Source of the DNA: an uncultured Eisenbergiella sp.
GTDB lineage: Bacteria > Bacillota > Clostridia > Lachnospirales > Lachnospiraceae
Assembly (NCBI GenBank): GCA_947626725.1
Contig: CANQTI010000002.1
Span: 1 to 35,634 of the forward strand
Direction: 5' to 3'
DNA length: 35,634 bases
In this document: piece by piece, positions 5,107 through 29,487 of the stretch
Layout: each line of letters begins with the position of its first letter
How positions within the stretch are numbered: the stretch's first letter is position 1
Notes under the pieces: model-generated
Seen by the model: the letters and a program-made list of their open reading frames with translations, nothing else
Told to the model about the DNA's origin: nothing
The model's database searches: none
Translations under genes and position numbers: made by a program

Positions 5107-8100
5107 ATGAAAAAGCGTGTGAGAAAAAGTGTAAGAAGCATGCTGGCGGTTTTGTTGGTGGTTGGAATGGCGATGAGTGTTCCCCTGCAGACGCTGGCGG
5201 AGGAGGAAGCCGGGGCAGAAGCGTTTACCGAGCAGGAACAGGCTCCGACGGAGGGAACAGGGGCAGAAAGCCGAGAAGCACAGGCGACCGTGAGTGGGGA
5301 GAATACGGAAATAGAAGACGTATCCCAAGGCACGGAAGGCGTGGAGACCCCGGAAAACGCAACCCAGAATACAGAGGATGCGACGGCGCCGGAAGGCACA
5401 TCCCAGAACGCGGAAGACGCAGCGGCGCCGGAAAGCACGCCACAGAATGCGGAAGATGCAGCAGCGCCGGAAAGCACGCCACAGAACGCGGAAGACACAG
5501 CGGCGCCGGAAAGCACAAACCAGGACGCAGAAGGCACAAAGGCCCCGGGGAGCACGCCTCAGAACGCGGATGACGCAGAAAGTTTGGGGAAGTTATCCCA
5601 GAACGCGGACGGCGCGGAAAATCCGGAGGCTGCGGGAAACGATTCCGGAGAGGTTCTGCCGGAGACGGCGCAGCCGAATAGTGACGAAATTATGTCTGAA
5701 GAAAGCACCGGAATCGAAGAGATGGAGACACTGAAAACGGACGGCAGCGGTGCCTCAGCGTCCGTCAGGATCAGTGCCATTGTGCAGTATGACGGCGAGC
5801 TGGAAGCAGGGCAGTTTTCTTTCCGGCTGGAATTGACAGGCACAGCCAGTGATCCGGATGATGCCGTGTCCCTGAGCGCTTCCAATGATGCGGAAGGAAA
5901 AATCACGTTTGAGGAAATATCCTATGAAGAAGCAGGGGAGTATGATTATGCGCTTCGCCAGGAAAACGGAGGAGAAATTGTAAACGGCGTCCGGCTGGAT
6001 GATACGGTTTTTACGGTGCATGTTTCTGTCAGCCGGGACGAAGAGAAGGGTGACCTTCTGGTGGAGATGGAGCCTGATGCGTCAGAGCTGGTCTTTTTCA
6101 ACAGGCAGGAGGAAGCGGTTGAAGACGGACATGAAGAAATCGCCGCGGAACTCTCTGCCGGAACGTCGGTCAGCCTGAATAACTATATTAAGTCGGAAAC
6201 CTTTACGGTTACTAATAATGAGTTATCGGTAGGGGATGACGGCCGGACAGATTTTTTTACGCTGACGGCGACATATGCGATCCCTTACGATGCGATCCCA
6301 TGGGATGAAAATGGAGAGGGGGTTGTCCGGTATACCGTTCCGCAGGGTAAGCTTTCGGATGGAACGTTGATCTCGCCGGAGTTTAATCCGGCACAGGGAG
6401 CGGGAACGGTTCGTTCCACTGTTGGCAAAGAGGTCGGCTCTTATGAAATACAGGATGGCGTTATGGTCATCACTTTTTACGAGGGCAAGTTAGAAAAGGG
6501 AACCGAGGTCAGCGGGGAATTATCGATGGAGCTTTCGCTGACGCTGACAAAAGAGCAAGCGGGAGACAATGAAAATATAGAATTTGGAGAGGAAGAGCAT
6601 AAAACAACGGTTCAGTTCCGGAAAGCGGAATCGGTCGGCGTGGAGAAGCGTGCGGAAGATGTTTCTGTGGAAACGATAGAAGGCGATCCATCTCACCGTA
6701 TTCTGAAATATTTTTATGTGATTGAGGTGACCTCTCAGACAGGCACGAGCCAGCCTATAGAGATATCGGATATTCTAAAGCAGCGTGCAGTCGAGGACGG
6801 ATCGCTCGAGGTTCTGAAGCCGGACGACGGCACGCCTGGAGTGGAGATTACCCTGTACGGTGCTGACGGCAAAGAGAAGAGCTGTTCGGCAGGACTGGAG
6901 ATATCATCCGGTGATGCGGCGCTTTTGTCCGGGTCCCTTCCGGCGCTTGCGGAGGGAGACTATTATGTGATCAGGTATTGTGTGACAGAGAAGGTGAGCA
7001 GTTCTGTGGGTGGCACGTTTACGGAGAAAAACAGCGTATCCGTTTCCATTCCGGATCCCCGGAATCCGGCGGAAAAGGTCGTGGCAACGGCTGATGCGGA
7101 TAAGGAATATCATTTCGCCGGCGACGATTTCGTGGATTTCGAGGTAACAAAAGAGGTGCAGAGCGCCGGGGAGGAGATCGAGGTAGGGTCTGATTATTCT
7201 GTGACCTGGCCTTATTGCGTGGAAGTCCATGTGGTGAACGATGAGGAAGGACTGGGAACAAAGGAAAAGACCGTTATCGTCACCGATACGGCTGTGAGCC
7301 GTGCCTGGGGAACCGGACGGAAGCTGCAAAATTTCCACATGTATCGGGTGCAGGAGGGAACCGGAGAGGAAGAGGAAATCACAAAGGATGAGCTGCAGAA
7401 GCTGGGCCTTGAGTGCTCCCTGAATGAAAACGAGGCGATTCAGCAGGGCGAGTGGCTGTTCGGCGTAGAGCTTCCTCCGCTGAAAGCGGGAGAATACTAT
7501 CGGATCAAATATGAGGTGGTGGAGAGCGGCATCTATGCGTTCATCCATGATGGCAAAGAGGATGATTTCAAGATCAGAAGCGAAAACAGCGTCCGCGCTG
7601 AGATAAACGGAAACGCCAAATTTGCGAAAGCGACTGCGACAGCGCTTTTGCCGGACGGAACGGAGCCGCTGCCTTCCCTTGAAAAAGAAAAGGGAAGCGA
7701 TTCCCCGTCTGTGACGGAAGATGGGGAATCCGTCCAGTTTGACTGGCAGATCGTGATCAATGAGTATGGCGCTGTTAATCTGACTGGATATGAGATTTCC
7801 GATGATTATACGGTCTCCTTTGATACGAAAGTTGTGCAGGAGGGCGAGACAGGATCCTATTATGAATCCTATAGAGGGAAAGTATATGTAAAAGAAATCG
7901 GCCGCCCCGACTATAATACAGTATCGGGAGGGTTCATACATCTTCCGGCAAAATTTGAAACTGCGGAAGATGGAAGGTATGTTTTGAAAGAAATAGACGG
8001 AGATGGGGAACTGCCCATTAAGGATCCGCACGATGTGTTTGTACTGACCTACTCTGTTTCGGTCCCGAAAGGGGAGCATTCGCTGATTGACATGTACAAT

Positions 8101-10602
8101 GTAGGAAAGCTGACCGGACAGAAAGAAGGACAGCCGGATACGGAAATCAGCCAGGGAAAGGAGCAGTATTACTGGGATTTTACGGTTGACAAGGAGCACG
8201 GCGATGTGGAGAATCTGGGAGGCGGGGAGAACAGGATACACTGGACTTCCACCGTCAATATTCCGGTTGATGGGTTCCAGAAGGGCGACAGCATCCGTGA
8301 CTATTTGATGGATGCGCAGACAAATACCAACTATCTTCAGAAAAAAGATACGGACGGAAATGTCCTTTTCCAGCAGTGGTTTACCAAACAGCAGGTCGAA
8401 GAGATCAAGGTCAACGGTCAAAATTGGAAGGAACAGAAACTGTCACTGGAGTTGACGGTTGCCTGGATGGAGGCAAACGGGAGCTTGCATTCTAATTTTG
8501 AGCAGTTGAATCAAGTGCCGGAGGATGCATATATCGTGGCATTCCAGCTGACCTTTAAGGAGCCATACGAAGGACCGGATGGAGAAGGAAACGTTTTGCA
8601 GCTCTCTTACAGTTCTATGGCGTATCTGGGAGCGGGTCAGAGCGGAGTGGCCATGAATACCGTAGAAGCGCAGGTTTCCGAAAACAAGAAAACGGCAACG
8701 GACAGTGCAGAACTGCAGCGAGATCGTGAGCAGCTGCTGAATAAAAGTTTGGTCGGCGGCTCAAAAGACGCGGCGTTTACCTATATACCCGGCATGAAAC
8801 TGTATTATCGGGTGGAATTGGATCCGGCGGCCTGCTTTGCACCGAAAAACGGCATTCTGTATCGGGATACGCTGCCGGAGGGTGCGACGCTCGTCCTGGA
8901 CAGCTGGGATTACGCCGGAAACCATTATCAGGCGGGAATGCCGGGATGCGAAGGCGGTATTCTGATCCGGTATCAGGGAAATGATGGGGCCGGAGAGCAA
9001 AATGGCTACCGTGGATTGGATGGCTCCGACATAAAGGTGGAGAGTGAATCGGGCTCCTTTACGGTCAGGATTCCTGCAAGTGCATATATGGTTAGCGGTT
9101 CTATGGAAATGCCGAAGATCATATTGTACTATGCGCTGCGCTTTGATTCCGTGCAGCTTACGGATGGCTCCGCCAGTGCGGTCAATCAGGGGGCGGCCTG
9201 GAATGGTGAGGAAGAAAGCGGAGCTGGAGTTACGGACAGCGCAAAGGTAGAATTTATGTCCGGCGGCCAGATTCAGAAGACCTCATTTACCTATGATCCG
9301 GATACTCAGACACTGTGCTATAGGTTGGATGTCAATGCGGACAGGAGCGATCTTCTGAAGAAGGTTGAGGGTGCGGATGTCTATCATGAGAATCTGACGA
9401 TCAACGATACCTTGGATTACAGTGAATATGAGGCGATTGAAAGCGTTATCCTGGACAGAGCTTCCGTTCGCCTATATAGGAAGGAAGCGGATGGGACCCG
9501 GACGCAGGTATCCTATGCGCCGGAGGATCTGACCGTGAGCAATGAAGGGAGGCAATGCAGCTTCACCCTCCAAGTATCGGATGAAACCTGGTGGCAGGTG
9601 GAATACACCTATCAGTTCACGATCAGAAACGGCGTTGTCGCAGAGTTGCCCAATACGGCGATCCTGTCCGGTGATAAAGAGTGGTTAGTGATCAATGAGA
9701 AAAAGACAGCGCTGTATAAATCTTCTGTAACAGCAAAGACGGAGGCTACGCGCTTACTGCTGAGAAAGTATGAAGCTGATGCGGAAGGAATTCTCAATCT
9801 CTCCAAACCCCTTGAGGGTGCCGTTTTCCAGCTGTGGCGGTATGTGGGCAGCGGAGAGGATACCGGGGAGGAAGCCTGGTATGACCTCGGTGTCTTTACA
9901 ACGGATTCCAACGGAGAGATCGTGCTGGGAGAACCGACAAGAGACGGGGAAGCCTTGCAGATGTTTTATAATTATCTGTACAGGCTGAAAGAGATCAGTG
10001 CCCCGGATAAATACGAGCTAAATGGGGAAGATATTTATTTATTCCTGGATAATGAGGAAATCCGTACGGAGTATATTCCGGACGGCTTTGACAGGGGACG
10101 GTTTGCGGAAACGGAACAGCTTGCAGAGGGCGGATATCTGCTGAGAGTCGGCAACCAGCCAGCGCCTGATCCGGAACCTACACCCGATCCGGAGCCTACA
10201 CCTGATCCGGAACCTACACCCGATCCGGAACCTACACCCGATCCGGGGCCTACACCTGATCCGGAACCTACGCCTGATCCGGAGCCTACGCCTGATCCGG
10301 AACCTACGCCCGATCCGGGGCCTACACCCGATCCGGGACCAGCGCCCGATCCGGGACCAGCGCCTGATCCGGGACCCGTGCCCGGCTTCATTCCTATACA
10401 GGGACCGGAAGCGGGAGTGCTTGGTGTGCGGATTCCGCTTCAGGAGCCAGGTGTATTAGAAGAGAGACGGCCCGGACAAGGTGTTTTAGGGGTGATTCGG
10501 ACCGGAGATAACTCGGCTCTGGGTTTCTGGCTGGCGGCTCTGGGGGCCTCCCTTGCCGCTATTTTGGGAATGGCGGTGAAACGGCGCAAGAGAAACAAAT
10601 GA
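5107..10602 (+). CDS. large cell-wall anchored pilin/adhesin-like surface protein
   Basis: 1831 aa: signal peptide (MKKRVRKSVRSMLAVLLVVGMAMSVPLQTLAEE), FctA/isopeptide pilin-like domain (VRISAIVQYDGELEAGQFSFRLEL...), Cna-B/SpaA-like domain near the C-terminus (KPLEGAVFQLWRY...YRLKEISAPDKYEL), Pro-rich PDPEPT stalk, and C-terminal RTGDNSALGFWLAALGASLAAILGMAVKRRKRNK sorting-type tail. Confidence 0.85.
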   Translation: MKKRVRKSVRSMLAVLLVVGMAMSVPLQTLAEEEAGAEAFTEQEQAPTEGTGAESREAQATVSGENTEIEDVSQGTEGVETPENATQNTEDATAPEGTSQNAEDAAAPESTPQNAEDAAAPESTPQNAEDTAAPESTNQDAEGTKAPGSTPQNADDAESLGKLSQNADGAENPEAAGNDSGEVLPETAQPNSDEIMSEESTGIEEMETLKTDGSGASASVRISAIVQYDGELEAGQFSFRLELTGTASDPDDAVSLSASNDAEGKITFEEISYEEAGEYDYALRQENGGEIVNGVRLDDTVFTVHVSVSRDEEKGDLLVEMEPDASELVFFNRQEEAVEDGHEEIAAELSAGTSVSLNNYIKSETFTVTNNELSVGDDGRTDFFTLTATYAIPYDAIPWDENGEGVVRYTVPQGKLSDGTLISPEFNPAQGAGTVRSTVGKEVGSYEIQDGVMVITFYEGKLEKGTEVSGELSMELSLTLTKEQAGDNENIEFGEEEHKTTVQFRKAESVGVEKRAEDVSVETIEGDPSHRILKYFYVIEVTSQTGTSQPIEISDILKQRAVEDGSLEVLKPDDGTPGVEITLYGADGKEKSCSAGLEISSGDAALLSGSLPALAEGDYYVIRYCVTEKVSSSVGGTFTEKNSVSVSIPDPRNPAEKVVATADADKEYHFAGDDFVDFEVTKEVQSAGEEIEVGSDYSVTWPYCVEVHVVNDEEGLGTKEKTVIVTDTAVSRAWGTGRKLQNFHMYRVQEGTGEEEEITKDELQKLGLECSLNENEAIQQGEWLFGVELPPLKAGEYYRIKYEVVESGIYAFIHDGKEDDFKIRSENSVRAEINGNAKFAKATATALLPDGTEPLPSLEKEKGSDSPSVTEDGESVQFDWQIVINEYGAVNLTGYEISDDYTVSFDTKVVQEGETGSYYESYRGKVYVKEIGRPDYNTVSGGFIHLPAKFETAEDGRYVLKEIDGDGELPIKDPHDVFVLTYSVSVPKGEHSLIDMYNVGKLTGQKEGQPDTEISQGKEQYYWDFTVDKEHGDVENLGGGENRIHWTSTVNIPVDGFQKGDSIRDYLMDAQTNTNYLQKKDTDGNVLFQQWFTKQQVEEIKVNGQNWKEQKLSLELTVAWMEANGSLHSNFEQLNQVPEDAYIVAFQLTFKEPYEGPDGEGNVLQLSYSSMAYLGAGQSGVAMNTVEAQVSENKKTATDSAELQRDREQLLNKSLVGGSKDAAFTYIPGMKLYYRVELDPAACFAPKNGILYRDTLPEGATLVLDSWDYAGNHYQAGMPGCEGGILIRYQGNDGAGEQNGYRGLDGSDIKVESESGSFTVRIPASAYMVSGSMEMPKIILYYALRFDSVQLTDGSASAVNQGAAWNGEEESGAGVTDSAKVEFMSGGQIQKTSFTYDPDTQTLCYRLDVNADRSDLLKKVEGADVYHENLTINDTLDYSEYEAIESVILDRASVRLYRKEADGTRTQVSYAPEDLTVSNEGRQCSFTLQVSDETWWQVEYTYQFTIRNGVVAELPNTAILSGDKEWLVINEKKTALYKSSVTAKTEATRLLLRKYEADAEGILNLSKPLEGAVFQLWRYVGSGEDTGEEAWYDLGVFTTDSNGEIVLGEPTRDGEALQMFYNYLYRLKEISAPDKYELNGEDIYLFLDNEEIRTEYIPDGFDRGRFAETEQLAEGGYLLRVGNQPAPDPEPTPDPEPTPDPEPTPDPEPTPDPGPTPDPEPTPDPEPTPDPEPTPDPGPTPDPGPAPDPGPAPDPGPVPGFIPIQGPEAGVLGVRIPLQEPGVLEERRPGQGVLGVIRTGDNSALGFWLAALGASLAAILGMAVKRRKRNK
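5365..5640 (+). repeat. in-frame 39-bp tandem repeats encoding NAEDAAAPESTPQ-type units
   Basis: QNTEDATAPEGTS-QNAEDAAAPESTP-QNAEDAAAPESTP-QNAEDTAAPESTN-QDAEGTKAPGSTP-... near the N-terminus of the adhesin. Confidence 0.85.
10165..10380 (+). repeat. in-frame 18-bp tandem repeats encoding PDPEPT/PDPGPT/PDPGPA stalk
   Basis: Repeated CCTGATCCGGAACCTACA-type units with synonymous variation. Confidence 0.9.
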
Positions 10603-10758: not shown

Positions 10759-11601
10759 ATGGCACATGAAATAACGGAAGAGGTCTTAGAAGCATTTCGG
10801 CAGTATTTGATTTCGGAAGAAAAAGGGAAGGAGACGGTGGAAAAATATCTGCGGGATATGAGGGCATTTTCCAGATGGCTGGATGCCCGCCCGGTGGATA
10901 AGGAAAGAACGATCGGTTGGAAAGAGCACCTGCTGGAAGAGGGGTATTCGCCCCGAACCGTCAATACCATGCTTTCCGCTGCAAACGCGCTGTTTGGCTG
11001 TATGGGCTGGACAGAATGCAGGGTGAAGTTCCTGCGTATTCAGCACAGGACCTTCCGCGAACCGGAGAGAGAACTGAACCGTCAGGAATATTTTCGGCTT
11101 GTCAGGACGGCCTCAGCGCAGAAAAAGGAGCGACTGGCTCTTCTGATGGAAACCATCTGTGCGACGGGAATTCGCGTGTCCGAAGTAAAATATATTACGG
11201 TGGAAGCGGCAAAAAACGGCCGGGCCGACATTTTTTTGAAGGGCAAGGTGCGTTCCATCCTGATTCCGGGGAAGCTTTGCCGGAAGCTGCTGAAATATGC
11301 AAAAGAGGTGAAACGCGAGCGGGGGGAACTTTTCGTGACGAGGAAGGGAAATGGATTGTCCCGCAAGCAGATTTGGCAGGAGATGAAACAGCTTTGCGAC
11401 AAAGCGGGGGTAGAAACCTCCAAGGTGTTTCCGCATAATCTAAGACACTTGTTCGCCACAGTGTATTATCAGGCCAGCAGGGACATTGTAAAATTGGCGG
11501 ATGTGCTGGGACACGGCAGCATTGAGACGACGAGAATTTATCTGCTTTCCACAGGAACGGAGCATCTCAGACAATTGGAAGAACTGGAGCTGATCCTATA
11601 G
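10759..11601 (+). CDS. tyrosine-type site-specific recombinase (catalytic residues intact)
   Basis: SAM-like N-terminal domain, then Arg I (ATGIRVSEV), Lys (LKGKVRSI), HNLRH, GHGSIETTRIYL with Tyr. Confidence 0.92.
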   Translation: MAHEITEEVLEAFRQYLISEEKGKETVEKYLRDMRAFSRWLDARPVDKERTIGWKEHLLEEGYSPRTVNTMLSAANALFGCMGWTECRVKFLRIQHRTFREPERELNRQEYFRLVRTASAQKKERLALLMETICATGIRVSEVKYITVEAAKNGRADIFLKGKVRSILIPGKLCRKLLKYAKEVKRERGELFVTRKGNGLSRKQIWQEMKQLCDKAGVETSKVFPHNLRHLFATVYYQASRDIVKLADVLGHGSIETTRIYLLSTGTEHLRQLEELELIL

Positions 11602-11637
11602 ATGGGACTGCCTCCGGGAACAGGGCAGTTCGGCTGA

Positions 11638-11656
11638 ACGGAATAATGATTCCGTC
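11638..11656 (+). repeat. left copy of 19-bp inverted repeat (putative recombination site)
   Basis: ACGGAATAATGATTCCGTC; matches the reverse complement of 12138-12156 at 18/19 positions and is itself a near-palindrome (ACGGAA-TAATGA-TTCCGT). Confidence 0.7.
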
Positions 11657-12137: not shown

Positions 12138-12156
12138 GACGGAATCATTATTTCGT
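12138..12156 (-). repeat. right copy of 19-bp inverted repeat (putative recombination site)
   Basis: GACGGAATCATTATTTCGT; reverse complement ACGAAATAATGATTCCGTC. Confidence 0.7.
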
Positions 12157-12200
12157 TGCCAAAGGACCAAAAGATAGAGCTAAGAACCGGAGGACATGAG

Positions 12201-13025
12201 ATGGAAATGAGGGAAAAAGAGATACAAAGGGAAGAATCAGTCCAGCTTACCCTGGAACTGATTGAGAAATTTCTGGAGGATTTTGCCGGGAAAGGAAGAA
12301 GGGAAGTATCCCTGAAAAATTATCGCGTCATCCTTCTGGGGTTTTACCGACATCTTCCGGAAGATAAGCGGATTGACAGAGAGACCGCGCGCCAGTGGCG
12401 GGATTGGCTGGTTGAGCAGGGATATTCAGAGAGAACCGTAAACAATCGGGTATCGGTCCTGAACTGTTTTATGGCGTTTCTGGGACGCAGGGAATGGCAG
12501 ATGGTGGACTTTTATGAGAAGGGCGGGGACGTGCAGCCGGAACTTTCCCGCCGAGAATACCTCCGCCTCTTGAAAGCGGCCAAAAACGTCGGCAGGGAGA
12601 GATATTATCTGCTGATCAAAACATTAGGCGGCGCTGGGGTACGAATTAACGAATTGTCTCAGGTGACGGTAGAAGCGGTAAAGCAGGGAGTGGTGGGACT
12701 GGAGTGTCATAATCGAAGACGAATCCTGCGCGTTCCAACCGTCCTGCAAAAAGAATTGCTGGCGTTTGCCGAAAGGGAAGGTATTGAGGAAGGTCCGGTT
12801 TTTCTGTCTCAGGACGGATATCCGCTGTCCAGGTCCACTATATGGTACATTGTGAGCAGTATTGGGCAGGAGGCCGGCGTGGAAGAAGAAAAAGCGTCGC
12901 CCAGGTGTCTATGGCAAATGTATCAGAGAACCTACAGCGGGATCCAGTCGAATATTGAGATTCTGGCGGCACAGGCTTATGACCGGATGATGGAGGAAGA
13001 ACAGCTGGAGGTTGGCTGGAAATAA
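12201..13025 (+). CDS. tyrosine recombinase-like protein, probably catalytically degenerate
   Basis: Same architecture as the 10759 gene (SERTVNNRVSVLNCFMAFLGRREW; GGAGVRINELSQVTVEAV) but the HNLRH position reads PRCLWQ and no GHxxxxTxxYxH motif is visible. ATG 12201 preceded by GGAGG; the ORF track uses an upstream TTG. Confidence 0.75.
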   Translation: MEMREKEIQREESVQLTLELIEKFLEDFAGKGRREVSLKNYRVILLGFYRHLPEDKRIDRETARQWRDWLVEQGYSERTVNNRVSVLNCFMAFLGRREWQMVDFYEKGGDVQPELSRREYLRLLKAAKNVGRERYYLLIKTLGGAGVRINELSQVTVEAVKQGVVGLECHNRRRILRVPTVLQKELLAFAEREGIEEGPVFLSQDGYPLSRSTIWYIVSSIGQEAGVEEEKASPRCLWQMYQRTYSGIQSNIEILAAQAYDRMMEEEQLEVGWK

Positions 13026-28236: not shown

Positions 28237-28247
28237 GCGGGGGAAAA

Positions 28248-28390
28248 GATTGAAAAATGAGCTTGATAGCTCATTTTTCAATCGGCAATTTGTGCCGGAG
28301 CGTCACAAATTGCCCTGATGGCAGATGAGAAATCGCATTCGCGAATTTCTCATCGCCCCGTCGCGTGAACGCTCCGGAATGGGGAAAAAC
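28248..28390 (+). ncRNA. operon-internal structured RNA element, copy 2 (P1, P2 with pseudoknot, extra P3)
   Basis: P1 GATTGAAAAATGAGCT(28248-28263)/AGCTCATTTTTCAATC(28268-28283); P2 GGCAATTTGTG(28284-28294)/CACAAATTGCC(28304-28314); loop CCGGAGCGT(28295-28303) is the exact complement of ACGCTCCGG(28369-28377); P3 hairpin 28324-28354; followed by GAATGGGG. Confidence 0.7.
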
Positions 28391-29167: not shown

Positions 29168-29393
29168 GATTGAAAAAAAGATCCTGGAGCTGGTATGTCA
29201 AAGAACCGGTTCGGATGATATCGATATGGAGATGGATATAATGGAGGACGTCGGCTTTTCCTCCCTGGAAGCGATGGAGCTGATCACGGAACTGGAGGAG
29301 GCGTTTCGGATCCGTATTCCCGCGATTGCGCTGCGGAGAGTCATGACGCTGTCCGATCTTGCGGATGTGGTCGAGGAAAAGCTTAAAAAATAG
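29157..29393 (+). CDS. acyl carrier protein-like, glycan-cluster specific
   Basis: MRDEIEKKILELVCQRTGSDDIDMEMDIMEDVGFSSLEAMELITELEEAFRIRIP: ACP fold with GFSSLEAMEL Ser motif; RBS AAAGGAG. Confidence 0.85.
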   Translation: MRDEIEKKILELVCQRTGSDDIDMEMDIMEDVGFSSLEAMELITELEEAFRIRIPAIALRRVMTLSDLADVVEEKLKK

Positions 29394-29487
29394 CCGTCCG
29401 GCTATTTTCAAGCTCGGGATTTGTGCTGCCGCACAAAGTCCCCCCTGATTCAAATGCCGCCTGATCGGCGGCAGAATAAGAGGAAGT
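29380..29487 (+). ncRNA. operon-internal structured RNA element, copy 3
   Basis: P1 AGCTTAAAAAATAGCC(29380-29395)/GGCTATTTTCAAGCT(29400-29414, one bulge); P2 GGGATTTGTG(29416-29425)/CACAAAGTCCC(29432-29442, one bulge); loop CTGCCG(29426-29431) is the exact complement of CGGCAG(29469-29474); followed by GAATAAGAGGAAG and ATG 29488. Confidence 0.6.

Follow-up and report, generated by a model that had tools for sequence, protein, structure and literature searches.

A dispersed, probably mobile RNA element with its own Shine-Dalgarno sequence at gene starts of Lachnospiraceae-type bacteria

The RNA feature ahead of the GT4 gene in the window (the whole stretch of 35,634 nucleotides analyzed from an uncultured Eisenbergiella sp.) is, in our judgment, likely to be subtype C of a dispersed and probably non-autonomous mobile element of about 110–150 nt, which belongs to Lachnospiraceae-type bacteria and settles between the Shine-Dalgarno sequence (SD) and the start codon of a gene. 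Its RNA folds into hairpins P1 and P2, with P3 in some subtypes, and the P2 loop pairs as a pseudoknot with a strand directly 5' of a built-in SD. The element would become established downstream of the SD that the gene had before and ahead of the start codon, along the direction of transcription; because the built-in SD keeps a constant spacing to the ATG, the downstream gene would stay translatable. We favor the explanation that the element is tolerated because its own SD replaces the displaced one. It resembles a well-behaved parasite of the genome more than a switch dedicated to this operon.

Structure of the copies in the window

The three copies in the window represent three subtypes (Table 1). 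All of them fold far beyond chance, with z-scores against dinucleotide shuffles of −6.2 for copy 3 and −8.5 and −4.3 for the other two, and a covariance model of P1 plus P2, built from 27 copies, scores them at 82.4 bits (copy 1), 98.7 bits (copy 2), and 50.4 bits (copy 3, match at 29379–29449). The preliminary description of copy 3 named a P1 that overlaps the stop codon of the ACP gene, P2, the pairing of its loop CTGCCG with CGGCAG, and a further hairpin, GCCGCC/GGCGGC, at 29456–29472; we recover each of them in the same place. The ACP stop codon (TAG, 29391–29393) lies within the 5' arm of P1, which ends the ACP gene with its last codon and stop just as the element does for scpA. By analogy with the empty sites described below, the GAGG at the end of the ACP gene was probably the SD of the GT4 gene before the element arrived.

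Table 1. Positions of the three element copies in the window
Feature	Position	Strand	Remarks
Copy 1 (subtype B) P1	1667..1704	+	between tatD and ksgA; folding
Copy 1 P2	1705..1734	+	loop CTGCGGGCGT 1715–1724
Copy 1 pseudoknot 3' strand and 13-nt segment	1759..1781	+	ACGCTCGCGG 1759–1768, then AATGGAGGAGACT; before GTG 1782 of ksgA
Copy 2 (subtype A) P1	28248..28283	+	folding
Copy 2 P2	28284..28314	+	loop CCGGAGCGT 28295–28303
Copy 2 P3 hairpin	28324..28354	+	subtypes B and C without P3
Copy 2 pseudoknot 3' strand and 13-nt segment	28369..28390	+	ACGCTCCGG 28369–28377, then AATGGGGAAAAAC; before ATG 28391
SD-like GAGG	29373..29376	+	in the end of the ACP gene, just 5' of the element; direct reading
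Copy 3 (subtype C) P1 hairpin	29380..29414	+	reading, folding
Copy 3 P2 hairpin	29416..29442	+	arms GGGATTTGTG 29416–29425 and CACAAAGTCCC 29432–29442, loop CTGCCG 29426–29431; reading, folding, covariation
Copy 3 H3 hairpin GCCGCC-TGATC-GGCGGC	29456..29472	+	arms GCCGCC 29456–29461 and GGCGGC 29467–29472; alternative to pseudoknot
Copy 3 pseudoknot 3' strand CGGCAG	29469..29474	+	complement of P2 loop
Copy 3 13-nt segment AATAAGAGGAAGT	29475..29487	+	carries the element's SD and sets the constant spacing to the GT4 start, ATG 29488; GAATAAGAGGAAG directly precedes the ATG

Gene types are taken from Pfam; ksgA, scpB, and spoVAC were named by reading translations. Two of the copies lie within a polysaccharide-type gene cluster, and copies 2 and 3 flank its Hexapep (acyltransferase) and PP-binding (ACP) genes. 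The earlier statement that they bracket this gene pair is thus literally correct, but they are merely two of 33 dispersed copies.

The RNA structure is real, and P1, P2, and the pseudoknot all covary strongly across copies. Across the 27 copies, 95.7% of P1/P2 cells are paired and two-sided changes occur at 14 of 27 pairs (0 of 500 shuffles as high), and the pseudoknot, whose 3' strand was picked by its spacing to the start codon, with complementarity left out of the choice, reaches a mean pairing score of 20.3 in 74 copies versus 15.0 with partners swapped (0 of 200 as high); these counts are not probabilities, because the shuffles keep the relatedness between copies. Loop and 3' strand change together between subfamilies, as in CCGGAGCGT/ACGCTCCGG, CCGAAGCGT/GCGCTTCGG, CCGCAGGCGT/GCGTCTGCGG, TCTGAGCG/CGCTCAGA, CTGCGGGCGT/ACGCTCGCGG, and CTGCCG/CGGCAG.

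Distribution, placement, and empty sites

The element is dispersed. A covariance model search finds 33 copies in its own genome, a 1.85-Mb draft of 69% completeness. Counting that genome, 28 of the 116 searched have matches, with at most 19 copies per relative. Occurrence within the genus is patchy: the same search finds zero copies in G005 and G010, which belong to the same genus and are at least 95% complete. The exact core pattern of the subtype-A P2 occurs in at least 119 stretches of the genome collection, and the record titles among the matches listed name Acetatifactor, Roseburia, Eisenbergiella, Lachnospira, Parablautia, and other Lachnospiraceae or Clostridia. Against 300 genomes across the phylum, covariance model R1 matched the own genome alone at E ≤ 1e-5. 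Plasmid and phage collections yielded no match to the element, none of the Rfam families scores it at or above the gathering threshold, and literature searches found no described element of this kind.

Copies are oriented in the same way as the downstream gene and have a common layout, [old SD]-P1-P2-(P3)-pseudoknot strand-AATGGAGG-ATG, in which about 13 nt separate the pseudoknot from the ATG. An automatic scan found a co-directional start codon 12–16 nt past the pseudoknot strand in 66 of 86 copies, and many of the remaining 20 look alike by eye and were overlooked by the scan; in an independent set the start codon lies at 12–16 nt in 84 of 124 copies, and at exactly 13 nt in 71. The distance from GGAG to ATG is 10 nt at 32 of 40 element starts; among the 295 native starts of the same DNA, only 58 have this distance. 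This spacing is therefore the element's own rather than a local habit. Moreover, the GGAATG linker before the SD is nearly diagnostic of the element: element-like hairpins lie upstream of 100 of 109 GGAATG-SD-ATG starts, and scrambled linkers gave 0 and 0. At the other end, an SD-like sequence lies just 5' of P1 in 73 of 86 copies, as against 8–14 of 86 in control windows further upstream. The genes that follow are unrelated and include ksgA, scpB, spoVAC, and a trxB-like gene. The enrichment at start codons could also come from selection for function.

Insertion sites differ between close relatives. Among seven genomes, the genes downstream of copies are almost all different, and orthologous sites are almost never common to the genomes compared. 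The gap between tatD and ksgA, for instance, is empty in G006, where the flanks are 93% identical; in G007 it holds a subtype-A copy rather than the subtype B of the own genome, and in G002 it holds what looks like a degenerate remnant. The scpA–scpB gap is filled in the own genome alone among seven compared, and the spoVAC site in the own genome alone among four. The element's 5' flank at spoVAC matches the region where the relatives have their SD; it is the ancestral SD, and the element therefore sits between the old SD and the ATG. Together with the empty sites in relatives, this flank leads us to the view that the element lands downstream of a gene's SD and ahead of its start codon, bringing a replacement SD with it. 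A search of relatives for empty counterparts of copies 2 and 3 found nothing of the cluster except an acyltransferase in G007, 52% identical, and its start carries no element.

We infer that the element moves in trans and that the initiation region may be targeted rather than merely tolerated. In several copies the 5' flank is itself the 3' end of an element, as if insertion had happened more than once at the same spot. Flanks are slightly more similar within than between copies (6 of 300 permutations as high), and flanks of 17 identical nucleotides on either side, covering SD and start codon, make L098 (2501–2650) and L122 (2501–2630) the best candidates for recent insertion with target duplication. 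No target duplication is evident at the scpB and spoVAC sites, and target site duplication is possible, with weak support. Like MITEs, the element is dispersed and multi-copy, has a stable secondary structure, and lacks coding capacity, having only a short, unconserved frame from an NTG; terminal inverted repeats were not found, as its 5' end, AGTGTGAAAAAT, and its 3' end, CGCTCCGGAATGGAG, are not complementary. The Y1 transposase (PF01797), the expected partner if the element derived from IS200/IS605, does not co-occur with it consistently: among incomplete drafts it went undetected in G000, G001, G002, G003, G008, G012, and G070, several of them element-rich, and is present in others.

Alternative explanations

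The feature was previously proposed to act as a switch, and a cis-regulatory RNA (riboswitch-like or thermometer-like, the pseudoknot competing with an alternative hairpin to control translation of the downstream genes) deserves consideration, since the covarying pseudoknot adjoins the SD, the CTCC of the subtype-A pseudoknot strand could, by reading, pair with the GGAG of the SD, and the alternatives in copy 3 are close in computed energy. H3 and the pseudoknot in copy 3 are indeed mutually exclusive, as proposed, because both use 29469–29472, and their computed energies of −13.9 and −12.6 kcal/mol, which ignore loop strain, are near enough for switching to be physically possible. We nevertheless regard this explanation as improbable. 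The exclusive structures are not conserved, with H3 confined to subtype C and the CTCC:GGAG pairing to some subtypes; the downstream genes are unrelated and form no consistent set conserved by descent; and the sites are not common to genomes, close relatives having empty ones.

In some subtype C copies the two pairings come apart. H3 is intact in seven of the eight C copies that we read by eye (L379 even carries a compensatory change from C-G to T-A), and the pseudoknot is perfect in the window copy, L382, and L384 and kept by wobble in L091, L381, and L095. Two of the eight keep H3 with the pseudoknot damaged by a central mismatch (L379) or absent (L308), and L095 is the reverse case, with one mismatch in H3. 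This comparison gives no evolutionary support to the proposal that the alternative pairings form a switch, and nothing points to switching in copy 3. The broader description of an operon-internal RNA element stands insofar as the RNA is structured, repeated, and inside operons and its pseudoknot covaries, but not as a switch specific to the operon, given sites that are dispersed and empty in relatives. More generally, repeated structured RNAs in operons may be mobile repeats and not dedicated switches.

An H3-type hairpin also occurs alone, without P1 and P2, as hairpin-GAATGAGAGGAA-ATG before other genes of the genus, including in genomes without the P1/P2 element; one example precedes a gene that comes after a putative atpG, named by eye. 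The H3 of copy 3 is therefore probably a separate SD-proximal module that has been joined to P1–P2. A second family, a GCCGC-loop-GCGGC hairpin followed by (A/G)GAATGAGAGGAA and ATG, stands before many genes of the genus (L166, L168, L169, L306–L335), here too also in genomes that lack P1/P2 elements, and some of its sites look conserved by descent.

A leader-peptide attenuator seems to us equally improbable. Here the SD before P1 would drive a short ORF from an NTG in P1, whose translation would open P1 and P2 and so control the downstream SD. A start-like NTG stands at the matching place of P1 in 69 of 86 copies, the SD-like sequence upstream recurs as given above, and the two are about 10 nt apart, as in real genes; against this, the peptide is not conserved, its frame and length vary between subtypes, and the 5' SD is accounted for as the one that the interrupted gene had ancestrally, as at spoVAC. 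A role in processive antitermination or RNA processing, on the model of EAR or the RNA target of LoaP, which the element resembles as a structured RNA within operons (polysaccharide operons included) with stable hairpins and several operon-internal copies, two of them in the polysaccharide-type cluster, is hardly credible, because neither EAR nor another Rfam family matches, LoaP is mostly absent, exceeding its curated cut-off in 2 of 25 genomes (G024 and G021, not G000) and so not tracking element presence, and the copies precede housekeeping genes, nearly always at the start codon, a position that antitermination does not require and leaves unexplained.

The mobile element with a replacement SD thus remains our preferred reading, and on it the pseudoknot may hold that SD open. 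A bolder version, in which the element actively recognizes SD and start codon as its target, the old SD starts a short leader ORF in P1, and the pseudoknot holds the replacement SD open, is tentative and, taken jointly, rather unlikely; if true, it would describe a self-insulating, start-codon-targeted mobile element.

Related elements and neighboring features

Small structured repeats are usually considered intergenic and tolerated. The present element occupies one spot at each gene, after the SD and before the start codon, keeps its orientation, and brings its own SD; it may serve as a natural portable 5'-UTR through which translation initiation is rewired at dozens of genes in common gut bacteria. 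Landing at start codons with its own SD is new, and the closest known kind is the BOX-type repeats. According to the sections of PMC3049150 drawn on here, BOX, RUP, and SPRITE of Streptococcus pneumoniae are likewise small, modular, dispersed, structured repeats, are judged to be parasitic non-autonomous mobile elements, are in some cases co-transcribed with their neighbors, and can also give an upstream gene its stop codon; their sequence is different, however, and those sections mention no landing between SD and start, built-in SD, or pseudoknot. Correia elements and ERIC are, in the background given there, also dispersed hairpin repeats and can affect mRNA processing once transcribed (PMC3049150). 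Correia elements have 26-bp inverted repeats at their ends (PMC3049150), whereas our element has none and is fixed in orientation relative to the gene.

TD-2 RNA (Rfam RF03162, clan CL00124) has the same order of hairpins when the element is read antisense. On that strand, the copy at 28245–28351 of the window (minus strand) and others score 36.2–39.2 bits, below the gathering score of 48.7. TD-2, a Treponema RNA, differs in matching the opposite strand and in an alignment shown without a pseudoknot; the two may be distantly related, with TD-2 annotated in antisense, and we keep this as a lead only.

Elsewhere in the window, a 20-nt inverted repeat (95% complementary; 11637–11656 and 12138–12157, 481 nt apart) lies between two tyrosine-recombinase (Phage_integrase) genes (10759–11601 and 12156–13025), with a polysaccharide-type cluster downstream. 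The locus looks like an invertible promoter of the phase-variation kind; a promoter scan was not above chance. Finally, positions 5107–10602 hold an ORF of 1831 amino acids, a repeat-rich surface protein that has a SpaA-like domain and two repeat arrays, one of 39-nt repeats at 5333–5605 and one of 18-nt repeats at 10109–10412.
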